Origin: Terriglobia bacterium
GTDB lineage: Bacteria; Acidobacteriota; Terriglobia; Bryobacterales; Bryobacteraceae
NCBI GenBank assembly: GCA_020073615.1
Contig: JAIQEX010000049.1
Coordinates: forward strand, 1 to 42,792
Direction of reading: 5' to 3'
DNA length: 42,792 nt
Made by a program: the position numbers and the translations under genes. Below the pieces are notes generated by a model. It had not been told where the DNA came from. It saw only the letters and a program-made list of their open reading frames with translations, and made no database searches. Below are positions 1 through 22,676 of this stretch, one piece after another; within the stretch, counting starts at the first letter, position 1, and each line of letters begins with the position of its first letter.

Positions 1-173
1 TTCAGGGCGAGCTGGCGGAAGCACAGGCGGCAAATGCCGAATTTGCGCAGGAAGGCGCGCGGGCGCCCGCAACGCCAGCAGCGGTTGCGGTGCCGGCACT
101 GGAGCTTGGGAGTCTTGGCCTTGCGGGCCGCTTCCAGCTTGATGTCTTTGGCGATCTTGGCGGTGGTGGCCAT
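1..173 (-). CDS. rpsN: 30S ribosomal protein S14, zinc type (partial, cut by window edge)
   Basis: Reading the minus strand from ATG at 173 gives 57 residues before the window ends; the full zinc-type S14 is about 61 residues, so only a few are missing. Two CxxC pairs (CWRC and CRLC) bracket the basic stretch [12 protein letters not shown] and mark the zinc-binding short form rather than the long zinc-free form. S14 binds 16S rRNA in the 30S head. It follows rplE after about 20 bases, the usual spc-operon order. The N-terminus ([20 protein letters not shown]) is longer and more charged than in most relatives. Confidence 0.95.
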
Positions 174-15076: not shown

Positions 15077-18000
15077 ATGATCCGAAGAACTGTGTTCGCC
15101 CTGGTTGCCTTGCTTCTGCCCGCGCTCGCGCAAGCCCAGGTGAAGCTGCTCCGCCATCCCGACTATTCCAGGGGCAGAGTCGTCTTCAGCTACCTGGGCG
15201 ACATCTGGATCGCCAATGAGAATGGCTCCGCGGTCGAGCGTCTCACCGACAACAAGGCGCGCGACCAGTTCCCGCGCTTCTCGCCCGACGGGCAGTGGAT
15301 CGCGTTCTCCTCCAATCGCGAGGGCAATTACGACGTCTTCGCGATGCCGGTGGCGGGCGGCAAGCCCCGGCAGCTCACCTTCCACAGCGCCAATGACGAC
15401 GTGGTGGGCTGGTCGCCGGACGGAAAGTGGATACTGTTCACCTCGTCGCGCGGCAATGGCGTATTCCCCGGCGTCGCCACCCTGTGGCAGGTCTCCCCGG
15501 AAGGCGGCATGGAGCAGCCCGTCCCCACCGATTGGGGTTCGTGGGCCAGCTATTCCCCCGACGGCGGCAAGCTCGCTTTCACGCGCCATCCCGGCAACTG
15601 GTCGCGCAAGCACTACCGCGGCAGCTTCGCAGCCGACGTCTGGCTGATGGATGTGGCGTCGAAAAAATTCACCAAGGTCATCGACGACGACTACAAGGGC
15701 AACCGCCTGTGGCCGATGTACGGGCCGGCGGGCGAGATCTACTTCGTCTCCAACGAACTGGCCAACGAGAAGAACATCAAGTTCGGCGGCCCCGAGGTCA
15801 TGAAGAGCGCCAATAACATCTGGAAGGTCTCCGACAAGGGCGGCAAGGCCACGCAAGTGACCCGCCACGCCGACGGCAACCTCTTCTTCCCCAGCATTTC
15901 GGCGGACCGCAAGACCATCGTCTACGAGGACAACTTCGGCATCTGGAAGCTGGATACCGCCAGCGGCAAGAGCACCGAGATCCGCATCGATATCAAGAGC
16001 GACTCCAAGGAGAACGATACCGAGCTGGTGACTCTCACCGAGGCCGAAGGGTTCAGCCTGTCGCCCACCAACAAGCGCGCGGCCATCGCCGCCCACGGCG
16101 AGATCTTCACCATCGCCACCGATCGCGGCGAGCCGCAGCGCGTCACCGAGACGCCGTGGCGCGAGCAGGACCCACGCTGGTCGCCCAATGGCAAGGCGGT
16201 CGCCTTCGTTTCCGACCGCACGGGGCGCCAGGAAATCTACCTCTCCGACGAGCTCGGCAAGAACGTCAAGAAGCTCAGCGACGTCGATTGCGACAAGTCG
16301 GCGATCGTCTGGGCGCCGGACTCCAAGTCTCTGCTGTATGCCGGTTCGGACCACAAGCTGCGGCAGGTGGAGGTTGACACCGGCACGACCGACGTCCTGG
16401 TTTCGAGCGACGTCTCGGGCATCGAGGGCCCGCAGTTTTCGCCCGACGGCAAGTGGATCTCCTACGGCAAGCAGGACAAGCTGCTGCGATCCAGCGTGTA
16501 TCTCATGGAGCTCGCCACCCGCCAGGAGCACAAGATCGGCGGCGACGAGTTTTTGCTTTCGCGCGGCGCGCGGTGGACGCCGGACGGCAAGAAACTGGTG
16601 TTCCTGGGCGGCTACGGCGCGCCCGGCATGTCCTCTTTGAACCGCACCACGCTGGGCCTGTTCAACGTGGCGTTCACTCCCGCGGATAAGGACCCGAGCT
16701 CCACCGGCGACCTCGACACCGAAGCGCAGGCCGAAGCCGCGGCCGCGGAAACGGCGGCGGCGGGGCGCGGCGGCCGGGGAGCGGGCGCGCCGGCGGCCCC
16801 GGCCAACGTCCAGGTCAAGATCGTATGGGACGGCCTGAACCGGCGCATCAAGAGTTTCCCCGCGGCCGGATCGGTCTCCCTGGTGGTTCCGTCACCCGAT
16901 AGCCGTACCTACCTCATCATGGCCACGCCCACCGCGGGCGGCGGCGGCGACACCGGCGGCGCGGCGGGCGGCGGCATGTACACCATCGCCGAAGACGGCA
17001 CACATCTGACGCACCTCAACACCACGCCGGCCGACGCCACGGCGGGCGGGCGCGGGCGCGGCGGGCGCGGCGGCGGCTTCGGAGGCGGCGAGCCGCAATG
17101 GGCGCGCGACGGGCGCAGCATTTACTTTATGTCGGGCGGCGGCCTCTATACCCTGGCTATCGCCCCGCCGCCTGCCGCAGATGGTACGGCGGCCCCGGCT
17201 ACCGGCGGCGCCGGACGCGGCGGACGCGGCGCGGCGGCGGCCCCGGCTCCGGCGGCTTCCACCACCACCGCCGGCCCTTCGCCGCGGCGCATCAACTTCA
17301 CCGTGCGCATGGAAATCGATCTCGCCCAGGAGCGCAAGCAGGTCTTCGAAGAGGCCTGGCGCACCATGAAGAACCGCTTCTACGACCCCGCCATGCACGG
17401 CGTCAACTGGGCCGCGGCCAAGGACACCTACGAGCCGCTGCTGGGCCACGTCGCCGATGTCGACGAGCTCCACAACGTCATCATGGAGATGATCGGCGAA
17501 ATGAACGCTTCGCATACCGGCATTTCGGGCGGCGGCGTCATCCCCGGACAGCCGCAGCCCGCCGAGCGCGTGCAGACGCGCTACCCCGGCTTCGAGCTGG
17601 AGCCCGACGCCTCCGGCTATTACAAGGTCTCGTACATCTACCGCAAGGGGCCGGCCGACCACGAGTACCTGAAGATCGCCGCCGGCAACTATATCCTGGC
17701 GGTCAACGACAAGGAGCTGAAGACCAGAGACAACTACTGGAAGCTCTTCAACATTCTTCCCGGCCGGAAATTCGAGTTCCTGGTGAATTCCAAACCGGCC
17801 GCCGACGGCGCCTGGACGGTGAGCATCGAGCCCCTGACCGCCGCGGCCAAGACCAACCTGGACTACGACCTGTGGGTCCAGGGCCGCAAGGAGATGGTGG
17901 ACAAGCTCTCCGGCGGCCAGATCGGCTACCTGCACATACGGGCCATGGATGCGCCTTCGTTCGAGAAGTTCCAGCGCGACCTGCTGGAGAACCTGGACAA

Positions 18001-18466
18001 GAAGGCGCTGATCATCGACGAACGGTTCAACGGCGGAGGCGGCATCGACCAGGAGCTGCTCGAAATCCTCAACCAGCGCAAACAGTACGAGTCGTACCGC
18101 ACCCGCGAGTCGGTCGTGGTGCCGCGCCCCTTCCAGGCCTTTTATGGCCCCATGACGGTCTTACAGAACGAACGCTCCGCCAGCAACGCCGAGATGTTTC
18201 CGGCGGGCTTCCGCGCACTCGGCCTGGGCAAGGTGATTGGCGTGCCGACGTCCGGCCAGGTGATCGGCACCGGTTCTTACACGCTGCTCGACGGCTCCGC
18301 GCTGCGCACCCCCGGCGTGGGCGTCTACGGGCCCAAGGGCGAAAACCTGGAGAATTTCGGCGTGCCGCCCGACGTGTGGGTGGACAACGGCCCGGCCGAC
18401 TTCCTGGAGCATCGCGACCGGCAGATCGAGAAGGCGGTGGAAGTGCTGAAAGGGGAAATCAAGTAA
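15077..18466 (+). CDS. Secreted tricorn-type S41 protease with beta-propeller domains
   Basis: 1129 residues. A signal peptide (MIRRTVFALVALLLPALAQA) sends it to the periplasm or outside. WD40-like PD40 propeller repeats follow from about residue 25 (LTDNKARDQFPRFSPDGQWI, FSPDGKWISYGK and others) to about 740. A PDZ-like domain lies near 840-920, and the S41 protease core at about 920-1120. Catalytic candidates by comparison with tricorn: His813 in NASHTGIS, Ser1036 in SASNAEMF and Glu1092 in LENFGVPPD. Tricorn-family enzymes degrade peptides, here probably extracellular ones for nutrition. Three to four Gly/Arg/Ala-rich inserts break the second propeller (AAAGRGGRGAGAPAAPA, AGGRGRGGRGGGFGGG, GAGRGGRGAAAAPAPAA). 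GGAGGT stands eight bases before the ATG. Single gene, convergent with the next. Confidence 0.92.
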   Translation: MIRRTVFALVALLLPALAQAQVKLLRHPDYSRGRVVFSYLGDIWIANENGSAVERLTDNKARDQFPRFSPDGQWIAFSSNREGNYDVFAMPVAGGKPRQLTFHSANDDVVGWSPDGKWILFTSSRGNGVFPGVATLWQVSPEGGMEQPVPTDWGSWASYSPDGGKLAFTRHPGNWSRKHYRGSFAADVWLMDVASKKFTKVIDDDYKGNRLWPMYGPAGEIYFVSNELANEKNIKFGGPEVMKSANNIWKVSDKGGKATQVTRHADGNLFFPSISADRKTIVYEDNFGIWKLDTASGKSTEIRIDIKSDSKENDTELVTLTEAEGFSLSPTNKRAAIAAHGEIFTIATDRGEPQRVTETPWREQDPRWSPNGKAVAFVSDRTGRQEIYLSDELGKNVKKLSDVDCDKSAIVWAPDSKSLLYAGSDHKLRQVEVDTGTTDVLVSSDVSGIEGPQFSPDGKWISYGKQDKLLRSSVYLMELATRQEHKIGGDEFLLSRGARWTPDGKKLVFLGGYGAPGMSSLNRTTLGLFNVAFTPADKDPSSTGDLDTEAQAEAAAAETAAAGRGGRGAGAPAAPANVQVKIVWDGLNRRIKSFPAAGSVSLVVPSPDSRTYLIMATPTAGGGGDTGGAAGGGMYTIAEDGTHLTHLNTTPADATAGGRGRGGRGGGFGGGEPQWARDGRSIYFMSGGGLYTLAIAPPPAADGTAAPATGGAGRGGRGAAAAPAPAASTTTAGPSPRRINFTVRMEIDLAQERKQVFEEAWRTMKNRFYDPAMHGVNWAAAKDTYEPLLGHVADVDELHNVIMEMIGEMNASHTGISGGGVIPGQPQPAERVQTRYPGFELEPDASGYYKVSYIYRKGPADHEYLKIAAGNYILAVNDKELKTRDNYWKLFNILPGRKFEFLVNSKPAADGAWTVSIEPLTAAAKTNLDYDLWVQGRKEMVDKLSGGQIGYLHIRAMDAPSFEKFQRDLLENLDKKALIIDERFNGGGGIDQELLEILNQRKQYESYRTRESVVVPRPFQAFYGPMTVLQNERSASNAEMFPAGFRALGLGKVIGVPTSGQVIGTGSYTLLDGSALRTPGVGVYGPKGENLENFGVPPDVWVDNGPADFLEHRDRQIEKAVEVLKGEIK

Positions 18467-18596: not shown

Positions 18597-21239
18597 CTAC
18601 TCCTGGCGCAACGCCTGCATGGGATCGATGCGGGTCGCCCGCCGGGCGGGCAGAAACGTGGCGGCCGCGCCTATGCCCAGCATGATCGCGAATACCACCG
18701 CGAAGGTCAGCGGATCGCCGGGCTTCACGCCGTAGAGAATTCGCTCCAGGAATCGCCCGGCGGCTAGAGCCATTCCCAGGCCGAGAACCAGCCCCGTACC
18801 GATCAAAGTGGCGGCGTTGCGGGCCACCGACGCCAGCACCTGCGCCTGGGTTGCGCCGATCGCCATGCGGATGCCGATTTCGCGGGTGCGGCGCGAGACC
18901 GCGTAGGCCATCACGCCGTAAATTCCCGTGGCGGAGAGCACCAGCGCCAGCATCCCAAACGCACTCAGCATAATCGCGGCGATGCGGGGCGCGAAGAAAG
19001 TCCACGTTAGTTGATCGTCCACGCTGCCGGCGGCGAACAGCGCGATATAGGGATCGAGGTCGCGTACCGCGCGGCGGATTGACGGCAGAGCAGACGCGGG
19101 GGGAATCGCTCGCGTGCGAGCCACTAAACAAGCCTTCGATTTATACGAGATTTCCAGCGGCGTCCAGAAGGCCGCATGGGCCTGTTCGGTCAGATTGAAA
19201 TATTTCCCGGTCTCCACCACGCCCACAATCTCCATCGGTTTCTCAGTTGGGCCGGTGGAGAAGCGGCGTCCCAGCGGGCTGCTCCCATCCAGCAATCGCG
19301 CCGCAAATGCGCTATTCACAATGGCCACCGGCCGGCCGCCCTGCTTGTCCCGGGCGTCGAACTCGCGGCCGGAAATCAAGCCCGTTCGCATGGTGTGGAA
19401 ATAATCGGGGCTGATCGTAAAGGCGTAAGCGCTCGGCACCTCGGAGGCGCGTTTGGGAACCGGCTTGCCTTCGATATAGATTGAATTCCAGGGGACGCTC
19501 AAGGTCAACGGGATATTGTCCACCAGTGCGGCCGACCCCACTCCCGGCAGTTGCCGGACCTTCTCCAGCATGCGCCGCTGGAACTCACGGCCGCGCGGCT
19601 CGTCGTAGCCCTGCATGTTCAGATCGAAGGAGACCGTAGCGAGACCATGGGATTGGAATCCGATGGGCGCTTCCAGCGACCGTCGCAAACTCTTGACCAC
19701 CAGCACCGAACAAAAAAGCAACAGCACCGACAGGCAGACCTGGGCGGCCACCATGTAATCGCGCAAATGCCAGTAGCGGAATCGTGTTGTGGCGGCATCA
19801 TTCTTCAATGCCGGGACCAGGTCCGTTTTAGTCGCCTGAAGAGCCGGCAGCAGACCGAATAACAGCGCCGTGACGGTGGAGACACCCAGGGCGAACAGGA
19901 ACACGCGGATATCTGCGGGAGCGCTGACAATCATCGGGAGATCCACCGGAGGATGCCACGCCGCCAGCGCGCTGGTAATCCAGAGAGCCAACAGCGCGCC
20001 CGCGGCGCCTCCCAGCAGAGCGACCATGAGATTCTCGATCAGCAGTTGCCGGATCAGCACGCCTCGTCCGGCGCCCAGAGCGAGCCGGATCGCGGTTTCC
20101 TTGCGTTTGTCGCCGGCGCGGGCAAGCAACATGCTGGCCAGGTTGGTGCAGGCTACCAATAACACCATACAAGAAATGCCGAACAGCGCAGCGACGAATC
20201 CGATGATGGGACCCCGCAGGAACGCTCCCGCCAACCCCGGAGGACTGAGCGCGATCTTCATACCGCCGTCGTCCTGTGGATACTCCTCCGCCAATTGCCG
20301 TCCGATCCCGTTGAGGGCCGACTCAGCCCGTGCCATGCCGATACCCGGCTTCAAGCGCCCCACCGCGAAAAAGGTACGGTTGCTCCGGCGGTCCAGATCG
20401 TTGCTGCCGCCCTCCAGCTCTTTCTCCATGGCCATGGAGAAGAAAACGTCCGGAGCGAAGAAAAGCTCGGTACCGAAAAAACCTTTCGGAGTTACGCCCA
20501 ACACCGTGAACTCCCGGCCGTTCACTTGAACCTTGGCGCCAATAATATTGGAGGCCCCTCCAAAGCGCTTTTGCCAACCTGTGTAGCTCAGAACCATCAC
20601 CGGATGACCGCCGCGGACTTTGTCGTCCTCAGGCTGGATCAGGCGGCCGGCCAGCGGCTTGACTCCCAGGAGCTCGAAGTAGTTCCCGGTCACCGTAAAG
20701 CCCCACATCCGCTGGCTGTCGCCTTTTTGACCGACGCTCGCCGGGACAAAGCCGATACCGGCCAACCCCGTCAGCACGGAATTGCGGTCGCGAAAATCGC
20801 GGTAGTCCGGGTACGAGACCAGAGGGAGGGTATTACCGCCCACGTTCTCGTTGAGCGAGACCACCTCCGAGCCGCGCTCCACACCGGGTAAAGGCCGTAA
20901 GAGAATCGCGTTGATCACGCTGAAGATGGAAGCGTTGGCGCCGATACCCAGGGCCAGCGAGAGCATGGCCATGGTGGCGAACAGCGGGCTCTTGCGCAAG
21001 CTGCGCCATCCATATCGAAGATCCCGGCCGAGCCGTTCGAGCGAGCTCCAGCCCCACATTTCGCGAATGCCCTCCTTGAGCAGCGGCACATTGCCAAAAT
21101 CGCGGCGGCTGGCCCATTCGGATTCCTGCCGCGTGGCGCCCGATCGAATTCGCTCCTCGGCGTCCAGCGCCAGATCGTGGGCGATCTCATCGTCGAGGTC
21201 GGTCTCGCGCCGTTTCCGCCGCCAAAAGTCCCACCGCAT
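18597..21239 (-). CDS. ADOP-type ABC transporter permease (MacB/FtsX-like)
   Basis: 880 residues. An N-terminal soluble segment (MRWDFWRRKRRETDLDDEIA to about residue 75, with LGRDLRYGWRSLRKSPLFAT) is the hallmark leader of acidobacterial duplicated orphan permeases. One membrane helix follows, then a large periplasmic MacB-like domain (SYPDYRDFRDRNSVLTGLAG), three helices around residues 360-500 (FtsX domain), a second periplasmic domain, and three final helices ending ARRATRIDPMQALRQE. The duplicated permease layout is complete. No ATPase partner lies nearby, in keeping with the orphan type. It follows padR by 13 bases and both are probably co-transcribed. Substrate unknown. Confidence 0.9.
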   Translation of the reverse strand: MRWDFWRRKRRETDLDDEIAHDLALDAEERIRSGATRQESEWASRRDFGNVPLLKEGIREMWGWSSLERLGRDLRYGWRSLRKSPLFATMAMLSLALGIGANASIFSVINAILLRPLPGVERGSEVVSLNENVGGNTLPLVSYPDYRDFRDRNSVLTGLAGIGFVPASVGQKGDSQRMWGFTVTGNYFELLGVKPLAGRLIQPEDDKVRGGHPVMVLSYTGWQKRFGGASNIIGAKVQVNGREFTVLGVTPKGFFGTELFFAPDVFFSMAMEKELEGGSNDLDRRSNRTFFAVGRLKPGIGMARAESALNGIGRQLAEEYPQDDGGMKIALSPPGLAGAFLRGPIIGFVAALFGISCMVLLVACTNLASMLLARAGDKRKETAIRLALGAGRGVLIRQLLIENLMVALLGGAAGALLALWITSALAAWHPPVDLPMIVSAPADIRVFLFALGVSTVTALLFGLLPALQATKTDLVPALKNDAATTRFRYWHLRDYMVAAQVCLSVLLLFCSVLVVKSLRRSLEAPIGFQSHGLATVSFDLNMQGYDEPRGREFQRRMLEKVRQLPGVGSAALVDNIPLTLSVPWNSIYIEGKPVPKRASEVPSAYAFTISPDYFHTMRTGLISGREFDARDKQGGRPVAIVNSAFAARLLDGSSPLGRRFSTGPTEKPMEIVGVVETGKYFNLTEQAHAAFWTPLEISYKSKACLVARTRAIPPASALPSIRRAVRDLDPYIALFAAGSVDDQLTWTFFAPRIAAIMLSAFGMLALVLSATGIYGVMAYAVSRRTREIGIRMAIGATQAQVLASVARNAATLIGTGLVLGLGMALAAGRFLERILYGVKPGDPLTFAVVFAIMLGIGAAATFLPARRATRIDPMQALRQE

Positions 21240-21252
21240 CGTTGCTCCCCCC

Positions 21253-21606
21253 TCACGCCGGACGCATCACCCGCGCGATCGTTCTCACCAGAAGCTTCCA
21301 CTTCGACTGCTCGGCCACCAGTTGCTTTCTGCCCGCCGCGGTGAGCCGGTAGTACTTCGCGCGCCGGTTCAGATCCGAAGCCTTCCATTCCGACGCGATC
21401 AGGCCCCGAGCCTCCAGCCGATGCAGCGCGGGATATAAGGACCCGCGTTCGATCAGCAGCAAATCCGCCGAACTCTGCCGGATCGCCTGGCCGACACCGT
21501 GCCCATGCTGCGGTCCCCACTGGAGAGTCCGCAAAACCAGCATGTCGAGCGTGCCCTGGAGCAGCTCGATACGATTTTCGCCGGAGGTGTTGTTAGGCGT
21601 TGCCAC
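21253..21606 (-). CDS. PadR-family transcriptional regulator
   Basis: 117 residues from GTG at 21606. The winged helix is typical of PadR: LLQGTLDMLVLRTLQWGPQH, then SLYPALHRLEARGLIASEWK and RAKYYRLTAAGRKQL. The short C-terminal helix (VAEQSKWKLLVRTIARVM) mediates dimerisation, as in the PadR-s1 group. GTG is chosen because no ATG fits and the codon lies at the edge of a palindromic promoter; there is no Shine-Dalgarno sequence, so the message may be leaderless. In Acidobacteriota such regulators regularly precede ADOP permeases and repress the pair. Confidence 0.9.
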   Translation of the reverse strand: MATPNNTSGENRIELLQGTLDMLVLRTLQWGPQHGHGVGQAIRQSSADLLLIERGSLYPALHRLEARGLIASEWKASDLNRRAKYYRLTAAGRKQLVAEQSKWKLLVRTIARVMRPA

Positions 21607-21661
21607 TAGAAGACATTCTAGTACAAGCGTCGTCTCTTGTCTACTAGAATGTCTGCTAGTG
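21604..21661 (-). promoter_or_regulatory. 58-base palindromic operator and promoter of padR
   Basis: Arms CACTAG(A)AGACATTCTAG... at 21604-21627 and its near-complement at 21636-21661 pair with one mismatch and a two-base bulge; each arm itself holds ACTAGA...TCTAGT. On the minus strand TAGACA and TAGAAT are separated by exactly 17 bases inside the palindrome, so a dimer or dimer pair bound here would block RNA polymerase. The start site would fall within a few bases of the GTG codon. Confidence 0.7.
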
Positions 21662-21694
21662 TGTAAGGCCGCGCACGGAACCGCCAAAGCGGTG

Positions 21695-21726
21695 ACCGGC
21701 CCCTGGCCCCCGGTCCCCAGCCCCTG
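21695..21726. repeat. Dispersed GGGGCC-type repeat, copy 4 (single arm)
   Basis: Only the C-rich arm is present, made of GGCCCCTGG, CCCCCGGT and CCCCAGCCCCTG units. It stands between the padR operator and the DHDPS-family gene. Confidence 0.65.
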
Positions 21727-21737
21727 TTTTGTGTACC

Positions 21738-22676
21738 ATGGAGGACGTGGCAAGCCGCTCCCTCCAAGGCATCGTTCCCGCGCTGGTCACTCCGTTCCGC
21801 GCCGACGAGCGCATCGATTACGGCGCCTGGCAGGCGATCGTCGACGCCATGATCGCCGCCGGCGTCGATGGCCTGCTGGCCGAGGGATCGCAGGGCGAGT
21901 TTTTCGCGCTCGATATGGAAGAGCGCCAGGTGGCGCTGCGTTTCTGCGCGCAGGCCATCGCCGGCCGCGTCACCCTTTACGGCAACGTGGGGTGTGTCAC
22001 CACGCGCGACAGCGTCGCCCTCGCGCGGGCGGCCGAATCCATGGGCGTCGATGTGGCGGTGGTCGTCACCCCCTACTACATCCGGCCATCGCCCGACGAG
22101 TTGGCGGAGCACTATATCGAAGTCTGCCGCGCGGTTCATCTGCCCGTGCTGGGCTACAACTTTCCGCTCCACGGCGGCGTCGAGCTTACGCCCGAGGTCG
22201 TCGCCCGCATTGCCACAAAGTGCGAGAACTTCGCCGGGCTGAAGGATTCCAGCGGCGCGCTGGACCGCGCGCTGGCCTTCGTCCGTGCCGTTCCCGAGCG
22301 GCCGTTCGCGGTCTTCGTCGGTTTCGATAACCTCATCCTGCCCGCGCTCGAGCAGGGCTGCGCCGGCTCGATTTCCGCTTCCGCCAACGTGGCGCCGCGG
22401 CTTTTCGTGGATCTGTATCGCGCGTTCCGCGAAGGCCGCAGGAATGACGCGGCACGCCTGCAAACGCTCGCCTCCGAGCTCGGTGGCGCCGTGATGCTGC
22501 ACACCTTTCCCTCCGTGGTAAAAGAGGCCATGCACCTCGCGGGCCTCCCCGCCGGACCCTGCCGCAAGCCGGTGGGACCGGTGCCGCCCGAGGCGCGCGA
22601 GCAACTGGCGCGCGTGGTGGCGAAGCTGGCCCAGGAAAACTATTTGCCCAACGCTCCCAAGACCACCGCCGCATAG
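21738..22676 (+). CDS. Dihydrodipicolinate synthase/N-acetylneuraminate lyase family aldolase
   Basis: 312 residues from ATG at 21738. A class I aldolase TIM barrel: N-terminal GIVPALVTPFRADERIDYGA, phosphate/pyruvate loop GSQGEFFALD, catalytic Tyr140 in LGYNFPLHGG and Schiff-base Lys169 in GLKDSSGAL, 29 residues apart as in the family. The family condenses or cleaves pyruvate with an aldehyde; substrates range from aspartate semialdehyde (lysine pathway) to sugar acids. No dapB or lysine gene is nearby and the sequence departs from typical DapA, so a sugar-acid aldolase is as likely. It is divergent from padR and 15 bases upstream of the next gene. Confidence 0.85.
   Translation: MEDVASRSLQGIVPALVTPFRADERIDYGAWQAIVDAMIAAGVDGLLAEGSQGEFFALDMEERQVALRFCAQAIAGRVTLYGNVGCVTTRDSVALARAAESMGVDVAVVVTPYYIRPSPDELAEHYIEVCRAVHLPVLGYNFPLHGGVELTPEVVARIATKCENFAGLKDSSGALDRALAFVRAVPERPFAVFVGFDNLILPALEQGCAGSISASANVAPRLFVDLYRAFREGRRNDAARLQTLASELGGAVMLHTFPSVVKEAMHLAGLPAGPCRKPVGPVPPEAREQLARVVAKLAQENYLPNAPKTTAA

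Follow-up and report, generated by a model that had tools for sequence, protein, structure and literature searches.

A candidate twin operator over the core promoter of an acidobacterial padR-ADOP operon

The padR-ADOP locus and its inverted repeat

The window, meaning the whole stretch of 42,792 nt from a soil bacterium of the Terriglobia that was analysed here, carries a small regulator gene, padR, and an ADOP permease gene 13 nt further on, both on the minus strand. A dapA-like gene at about 21738-22676 on the plus strand is divergent from padR, and a Tricorn-like/S41 peptidase with PD40 repeats (15077-18466) is convergent to the ADOP gene. The window's genome holds 33 PadR family matches, 23 of them over the cut-off, and at least 68 ADOP family matches, all over the cut-off, two being pieces of one frame (67 of 160 candidates scored). 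Given these numbers, many permeases are probably without an adjacent PadR from TIGR03433. The features of the locus are as follows.

18597..21239, minus strand: ADOP permease, 880 aa; TIGR03434 at 859.6 bits, above the curated cut-off of 622.3
21245..21252, minus strand: Shine-Dalgarno-like sequence GGGGGGAG, read from the sequence, preceding the ADOP ATG
21253..21606, minus strand: padR, 117 aa; TIGR03433 (padR_acidobact) at 145.9 bits, above the curated cut-off of 101.8
21604..21606, minus strand: start codon GTG of padR, made up of the repeat's final three bases; absent from 7 orthologs
21604..21661: 58-bp inverted repeat with 20-nt arms (21604-21623 and 21642-21661) and an 18-nt centre
21605..21622, minus strand: candidate proximal operator box 2, ACTAGAATGTCTTCTAGT, with the family core CTAGAATGTCTTC at 21621-21609
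21615..21620, minus strand: -10 hexamer TAGAAT, lying within box 2; T closes the hexamer in 74 of the 81 two-box promoters that belong to either main spacing class
21638..21643, minus strand: -35 hexamer TAGACA, overlapping the edge of box 1 and repeating the half-site TAGAC; 81% identity in 7 orthologs
21643..21660, minus strand: candidate distal operator box 1, ACTAGCAGACATTCTAGT, with the family core GCAGACATTCTAG at 21656-21644

A sequence-only reading had claimed that a 58-base palindrome lies over the padR promoter, and this was confirmed. The arms of the repeat, separated by 18 nt, are 95% complementary (19 of 20 pairs), and among spans of up to about 64 nt it is the top ungapped repeat in the window, with a net score of 17 against 14 for the next. 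In 100 dinucleotide shuffles of the window (500-nt blocks), the best repeats score 14 or less. The further claim that each arm is itself a palindrome stands in part: the arm ACTAGAAGACATTCTAGT is self-complementary at 14 of 18 positions and the other arm at 12 of 18, so that the inner symmetry is imperfect, and the wider family conserves GTAGA-N3-TCTAC instead, with a centre 1.5 bp off that of the arm palindrome. The 18-bp palindrome inside each arm is a feature of the nearest clade, and the window's two boxes are inverted copies of the family site. Allowing up to three mismatches, the 18-mer arm word is found within the window only at the two arms.

TAGACA and TAGAAT, 17 nt apart on the minus strand, form a sigma-70-like pair and are the sole promoter-like pair in 21200-21900, where 0.1 is expected; the same pair at the same spacing had been assigned to the repeat from the sequence. 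The palindrome does cover this promoter. The -10 sits inside box 2, but the -35 overlaps no more than the edge of the far box. In the window the -35 thus adjoins box 1 rather than sitting inside it, which counts against reading the element as a twin operator.

The AlphaFold model of PadR (mean pLDDT 73.9, pTM 0.63) consists of a winged helix plus a lone C-terminal helix, with helices at 7-29, 32-46, 49-55 and 57-66, strands at 70-76 and 82-88, and a helix at 90-114. A fold search of the PDB returned PadR-type or LmrR-derived chains as top matches, LmrR, cdPadR1 (5dym) and bcPadR1 (4esb) among them, at modest TM-scores of about 0.5-0.7. With its 117 aa, winged helix and single C-terminal helix, the modelled protein would belong to PadR subfamily 2 (LmrR-like). 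TIGR03433 was also matched by all 27 aligned members, at E 0.001 or better.

Conservation of the boxes among orthologs and PadR relatives

We compared the region in seven orthologs with PadR cores 84-98% identical, anchored on the -10 and with the window as reference. Identity to the window is 87% in box 2, 81% in the -35 and 80% in box 1, the last value being lowered for L064 and L093 by the ungapped footprint, while it is 57% in the spacer, 48% in the stretch after the boxes and 31% in the 69 bases above them. The boxes are therefore a conserved island (80-87% with the -35, against 31% upstream and 57% in the spacer). For comparison, positions 1, 2 and 3 of the padR codons are 91, 95 and 67% identical.

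In three of the ortholog regions the ADOP partner shares 82-92% identity with that of the window; in the other four it shares 34-39%, although PadR there is still 84-86% identical and the boxes are kept. Since they are kept while the partner changes, the boxes track padR and not the permease. At L063/L094, L064, L062/L092 and L093, padR and the boxes are orthologous but sit beside another ADOP paralog (34-39%), which looks as though the regulator unit had been exchanged between permeases. At L063, the whole of box 1 with its flank (about 26 bp) is also duplicated upstream of padR, giving three boxes.

Promoters of more distant relatives yielded the family word GTAGANTGTCTNC together with its reverse complement. 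In a test set of 60 relatives selected by protein score, with the window's and the sister genome excluded, a site of at least 10 of 11 bases lies within 110 nt in 46 loci, against 0.16 expected from shuffles; 130-240 nt upstream in the same loci, such a site is found in 0 of 60. Nine of these promoters had been examined earlier, and among the 51 new ones 37 have the site and 14 do not. The 14 test loci without a 10-of-11 site count against a twin operator.

A scan for the core GTAGA-N3-TCTAC (at least 8 of 10 bases, 135 nt) covered the 127 relatives of at least 56% identity. From the relatives, protein matches below 90 bits had been dropped (10 of 215, before duplicate removal), none for short upstream sequence, and 6 of 159 unique loci had been left out, having been brought in by a DNA pattern. 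Two sites were found in 91 relatives (0.15 with two in shuffles), one in 29 and none in 7; the one-site and no-site relatives again speak against two operators as the rule. A site within 110 nt is present in 119 of the 127 relatives, as against 3 of 26 loci below 56% PadR identity, almost all of which come from the window's genome and its sister. A search for a similar site before other ADOP/PadR pairs had been proposed by the sequence-only reading, and such a site does stand before many other PadR genes of this clade. Judged by these promoters, similar layouts recur across a large, little-studied gene family. Most of the relatives' 38 named loci come from metagenome assemblies with the label Bryobacteraceae, Bryobacterales, Solibacteraceae or Acidobacteria, and single loci are labelled Vicinamibacteria, Acidimicrobiia, Gemmatimonadetes and Aminicenantes.

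The 91 two-site promoters fall into two main spacing classes, 23-24 bp in 51 and 32-36 bp in 30, with other spacings in 10; the two classes differ by about one helical turn, and the window's spacing is 35. The -10 (TAGANT) falls in the copy nearer to padR, and where the spacing is 23-24 bp the -35 (TAGAC) falls in the far one. A point against the twin operator is that the sigma factor's 17-18 bp rule, and not contact between proteins, could set this 23-24 spacing. Promoters spaced like the window's have box 1 about one turn further upstream, with a TAGACA half-site at the -35. The hexamers have a strand polarity. The box 2 hexamer ends in T in 46 of 51 promoters spaced at 23-24 bp and in 28 of 30 spaced at 32-36 bp, and the mirror letter A stands there once in each class (1/51 and 1/30). 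A protein-binding palindrome would by itself leave the strand free, so this polarity supports the box 2 hexamer as a -10. At box 1, a C comes after the opening five bases (TAGAC) in 44 of the 51 promoters with 23-24 spacing; the hexamer's sixth base there is A, giving the full TAGACA, in 28 and G in 14 of the 51. With 32-36 spacing the C is found in 21 of 30. Box 1 is less strictly polar than box 2, another point against the twin operator. What the sequences show directly comprises the boxes, how well they are conserved, their tie to this PadR clade, a preference for two spacings and the polarity of the hexamers on the strand.

We also scanned whole genomes with the two-box pattern TAGACN-16..18-TAGANTGTCT and a reversed control. 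In 150 genomes of the family there were 27 matches in 21 genomes, against 5 for the control. These represent 25 distinct regions including the window; a conserved PadR domain starts 34-51 nt further on in 22, and of the remaining three, one leads to an ADOP gene without PadR and two to neither. The scan of 297 genomes from the phylum gave 16 matches, spread over 15 genomes and including that of the window (reversed control, 5). Twelve of the other 15 precede PadR, eight of them being one sequence in one genus, and three precede an ADOP gene without PadR, at some 40-100 nt. At L247, L248, L261 and L173, all in other genomes, the two-box motif stands before ADOP genes with no padR between.

Start codon and leader of padR

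In the window the edge of the palindrome does form the GTG start codon (21606-21604), as had been noted, but this is peculiar to this genome, being found in 0 of 7 orthologs, and the claim that made the start codon an integral element of the palindrome is unsupported in that form. With the start taken by rule, not annotation, as the first in-frame ATG, GTG or TTG after the box, the first start in all seven orthologs is an ATG, 5-8 nt beyond the position of the window's GTG and 13-16 nt after the -10 hexamer. Counted from the first T of the -10, the start codon is 14 nt away in the window (GTG) and 19-22 nt away in all seven orthologs, L091 and L093 among them (ATG). In the sister species GTC stands in place of the window's GTG, and its ATG, 6 nt beyond, corresponds to ACG in the window. 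At 21598-21606, the padR start codon of the window thus appears shifted relative to that of the sister species (GTG/GTC, ACG/ATG).

A box was present in 119 relatives; in 95 of them the start lies 12-22 nt from the first T of the -10, and 6 gave no start. A Shine-Dalgarno-like word was found in 13 of the 113 relatives with both a box and a start (raw count); none was seen before padR in the window sequence. According to excerpts of PMC3160421, predicted leaderless genes of bacteria have their box about 12 bp upstream, and an average of 13.3% of genes are predicted to be leaderless in three acidobacterial genomes. The ATG starts of all seven orthologs and the GTC of the sister species suggest that the ancestral padR mRNA would have had a leader of a few nt, and a very short predicted leader is the usual state in this clade. 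The later ATG of the orthologs shows that strict leaderlessness, as proposed for padR, is not conserved. It is possible for the window's copy alone.

Proposed autorepression, alternatives and parallel circuits

The conservation of the site, its spacing and its linkage to padR support the earlier proposal of a two-site operator on the core promoter of the padR-ADOP operon. We consider it highly likely that the element is a twin operator for autorepression, and the two mirror-image boxes are very probably the repressor's own binding site. We infer that PadR is the protein bound there, with one dimer on each box. With the -10 inside box 2 and the -35 adjoining box 1, bound PadR would be expected to exclude RNA polymerase. 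The two dimers would lie on a comparable face of the helix and may cooperate, and the operon, padR and ADOP together, would repress itself until a ligand or another signal releases PadR. Translation of padR would proceed from a very short leader or none, and that of the permease from its own Shine-Dalgarno-like sequence.

The repeat sits between two divergent genes, and it might be the site of another regulator or serve the dapA-like gene, with padR a mere neighbour. The contig of the sister species stops 183 nt above the PadR domain, too soon to reveal a divergent gene. However, no dapA-like match was found in 11 loci of the 7 distinct ortholog regions; the sequence above padR extends for at least 1.5 kb in five of these regions, and for 183-221 nt in the sister species and L093. 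A site for the divergent gene is disfavoured by the absence of a dapA-like gene from the five regions with enough sequence. The presence of the site moreover falls from 119/127 to 3/26 with PadR identity, and of the 25 motif regions in the family genomes 22 precede padR and one an ADOP gene, both of which argue against another regulator; we regard this explanation as very unlikely. PadR acting as an activator from box 1 rather than as a repressor from both boxes would agree with the location of box 1 above the -35 in the window and with a PadR-like positive regulator on record, PrhP (excerpts of PMC6804342). Yet box 2 covers the -10 across the family, a position for repression, which makes activation very improbable.

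With 19 of 20 positions paired, so large a repeat might also act as a nucleic-acid structure, as a cruciform, a terminator or an RNA hairpin, and not as a protein site. No terminator-like site was found in 21200-21900, and a terminator was rejected on that ground. The padR transcript, as inferred, starts at the edge of the repeat and so would exclude it, and relatives keep the two boxes and their spacing despite much less pairing between the boxes (promoters inspected, unscored). A structural role is in our view extremely unlikely. Inverted repeats also mark mobile elements, and padR with its boxes recurs beside different ADOP partners, as a transposon end, a MITE or a REP-like repeat might. 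In the window's genome, however, the site with 0 or 1 mismatch is confined to the two arms, and with no dispersed copies there we rejected a mobile or repetitive element as vanishingly improbable.

Autorepression by a twin operator has known counterparts. LmrR of Lactococcus lactis is, like the window's PadR, a small PadR protein that regulates its own gene and a transporter, and the lmrCD promoter region has two LmrR sites, one on the -10/-35, in an arrangement similar to the window's boxes (excerpts of PMC5050560 and PMC5428041). The LmrR site is ATGT-N8/10-ACAT, as against GTAGA-N3-TCTAC here, and its target in these excerpts is the ABC exporter LmrCD, not an ADOP. In the same two sources, as excerpted, cdPadR1 too binds two sites in its target promoter; for this Clostridioides difficile protein they are inverted repeats of its own promoter, one of which covers the predicted -35/-10 (PMC5050560). 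Its site differs, being TACT-N11/12-AGTA with loose internal spacing, and by that excerpted account the motif is matched about 200 times in its genome; for the site of the window there is no second locus with 0 or 1 mismatch. In Bacillus cereus, bcPadR1 and bcPadR2 are LmrR-like PadR-s2 proteins, of which bcPadR1 binds its own promoter, and their half-sites are degenerate and ATGT/ACAT-like, unlike GTAGA-N3-TCTAC (excerpts of PMC3506622). The family site thus departs from the canonical PadR operator ATGT-N8-ACAT. A literature search gave no operator for an acidobacterial PadR-ADOP pair (TIGR03433/TIGR03434) among the matches listed. Autoregulation by PadR through two promoter sites (LmrR, cdPadR1) is already known, and what differs here is the operator word. 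A precise word makes regulons readable from sequence and ties permeases without PadR to likely regulators; it also offers ready reporter targets for finding inducing compounds.

The exact core GTAGANNNTCTAC has three occurrences in the window's genome, against nine per strand for the reversed control, so that it is not enriched in number there, a point against the twin operator. The three places are before padR L005, before padR L008 and directly before an ADOP ATG on C79. At this last place (L245, C79:44203-44215), the ADOP ATG comes right after GGTAGAATATCTACC, and the 3-kb locus holds no PadR. The same 15 bp form the candidate operator of padR L008 on a different contig, and the shared GGTAGAATATCTACC makes the L245 ADOP gene a likely trans target. 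The window's own version of the site is found nowhere else in its genome with 0 or 1 mismatch, and its circuit for this reason looks local.

Other PadR paralogs have other conserved dyads, judged by eye between the window's and the sister genome. At L012/L038, ACCCGAG...CTCGGGT in one sister species corresponds to ACCTGAG...CTCAGGT in the other, with both arms changed and the symmetry kept; this dyad lies over the paralog's promoter. The helix SLYPALHRLE, the putative recognition helix from its place in the modelled fold, is nearly invariant in paralogs whose promoters carry other dyads, which counts against the twin operator. A broader reading, on which we are evenly divided, is that the acidobacterial PadR-ADOP family forms an expanded array of parallel circuits: each PadR paralog would have a private dyad in its own promoter hexamers (in the clade of the window, one operator word and its reverse complement serving as -35 (TAGACA) and -10 (TAGANT), with spacing in helical-turn steps), and some PadRs would act in trans on ADOP genes without padR. 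If the circuits are private, specificity would have to be set outside the nearly invariant recognition helix. The PadR-ADOP set also offers a natural experiment on the way in which a single family of repressors keeps its many operators distinct.

Matches to the window's site with two or three mismatches on C142, C201 and C178 of its genome lie in loci with neither PadR nor ADOP and were taken as chance. A three-mismatch match at C206:4717 adjoins a weak PadR-family match.
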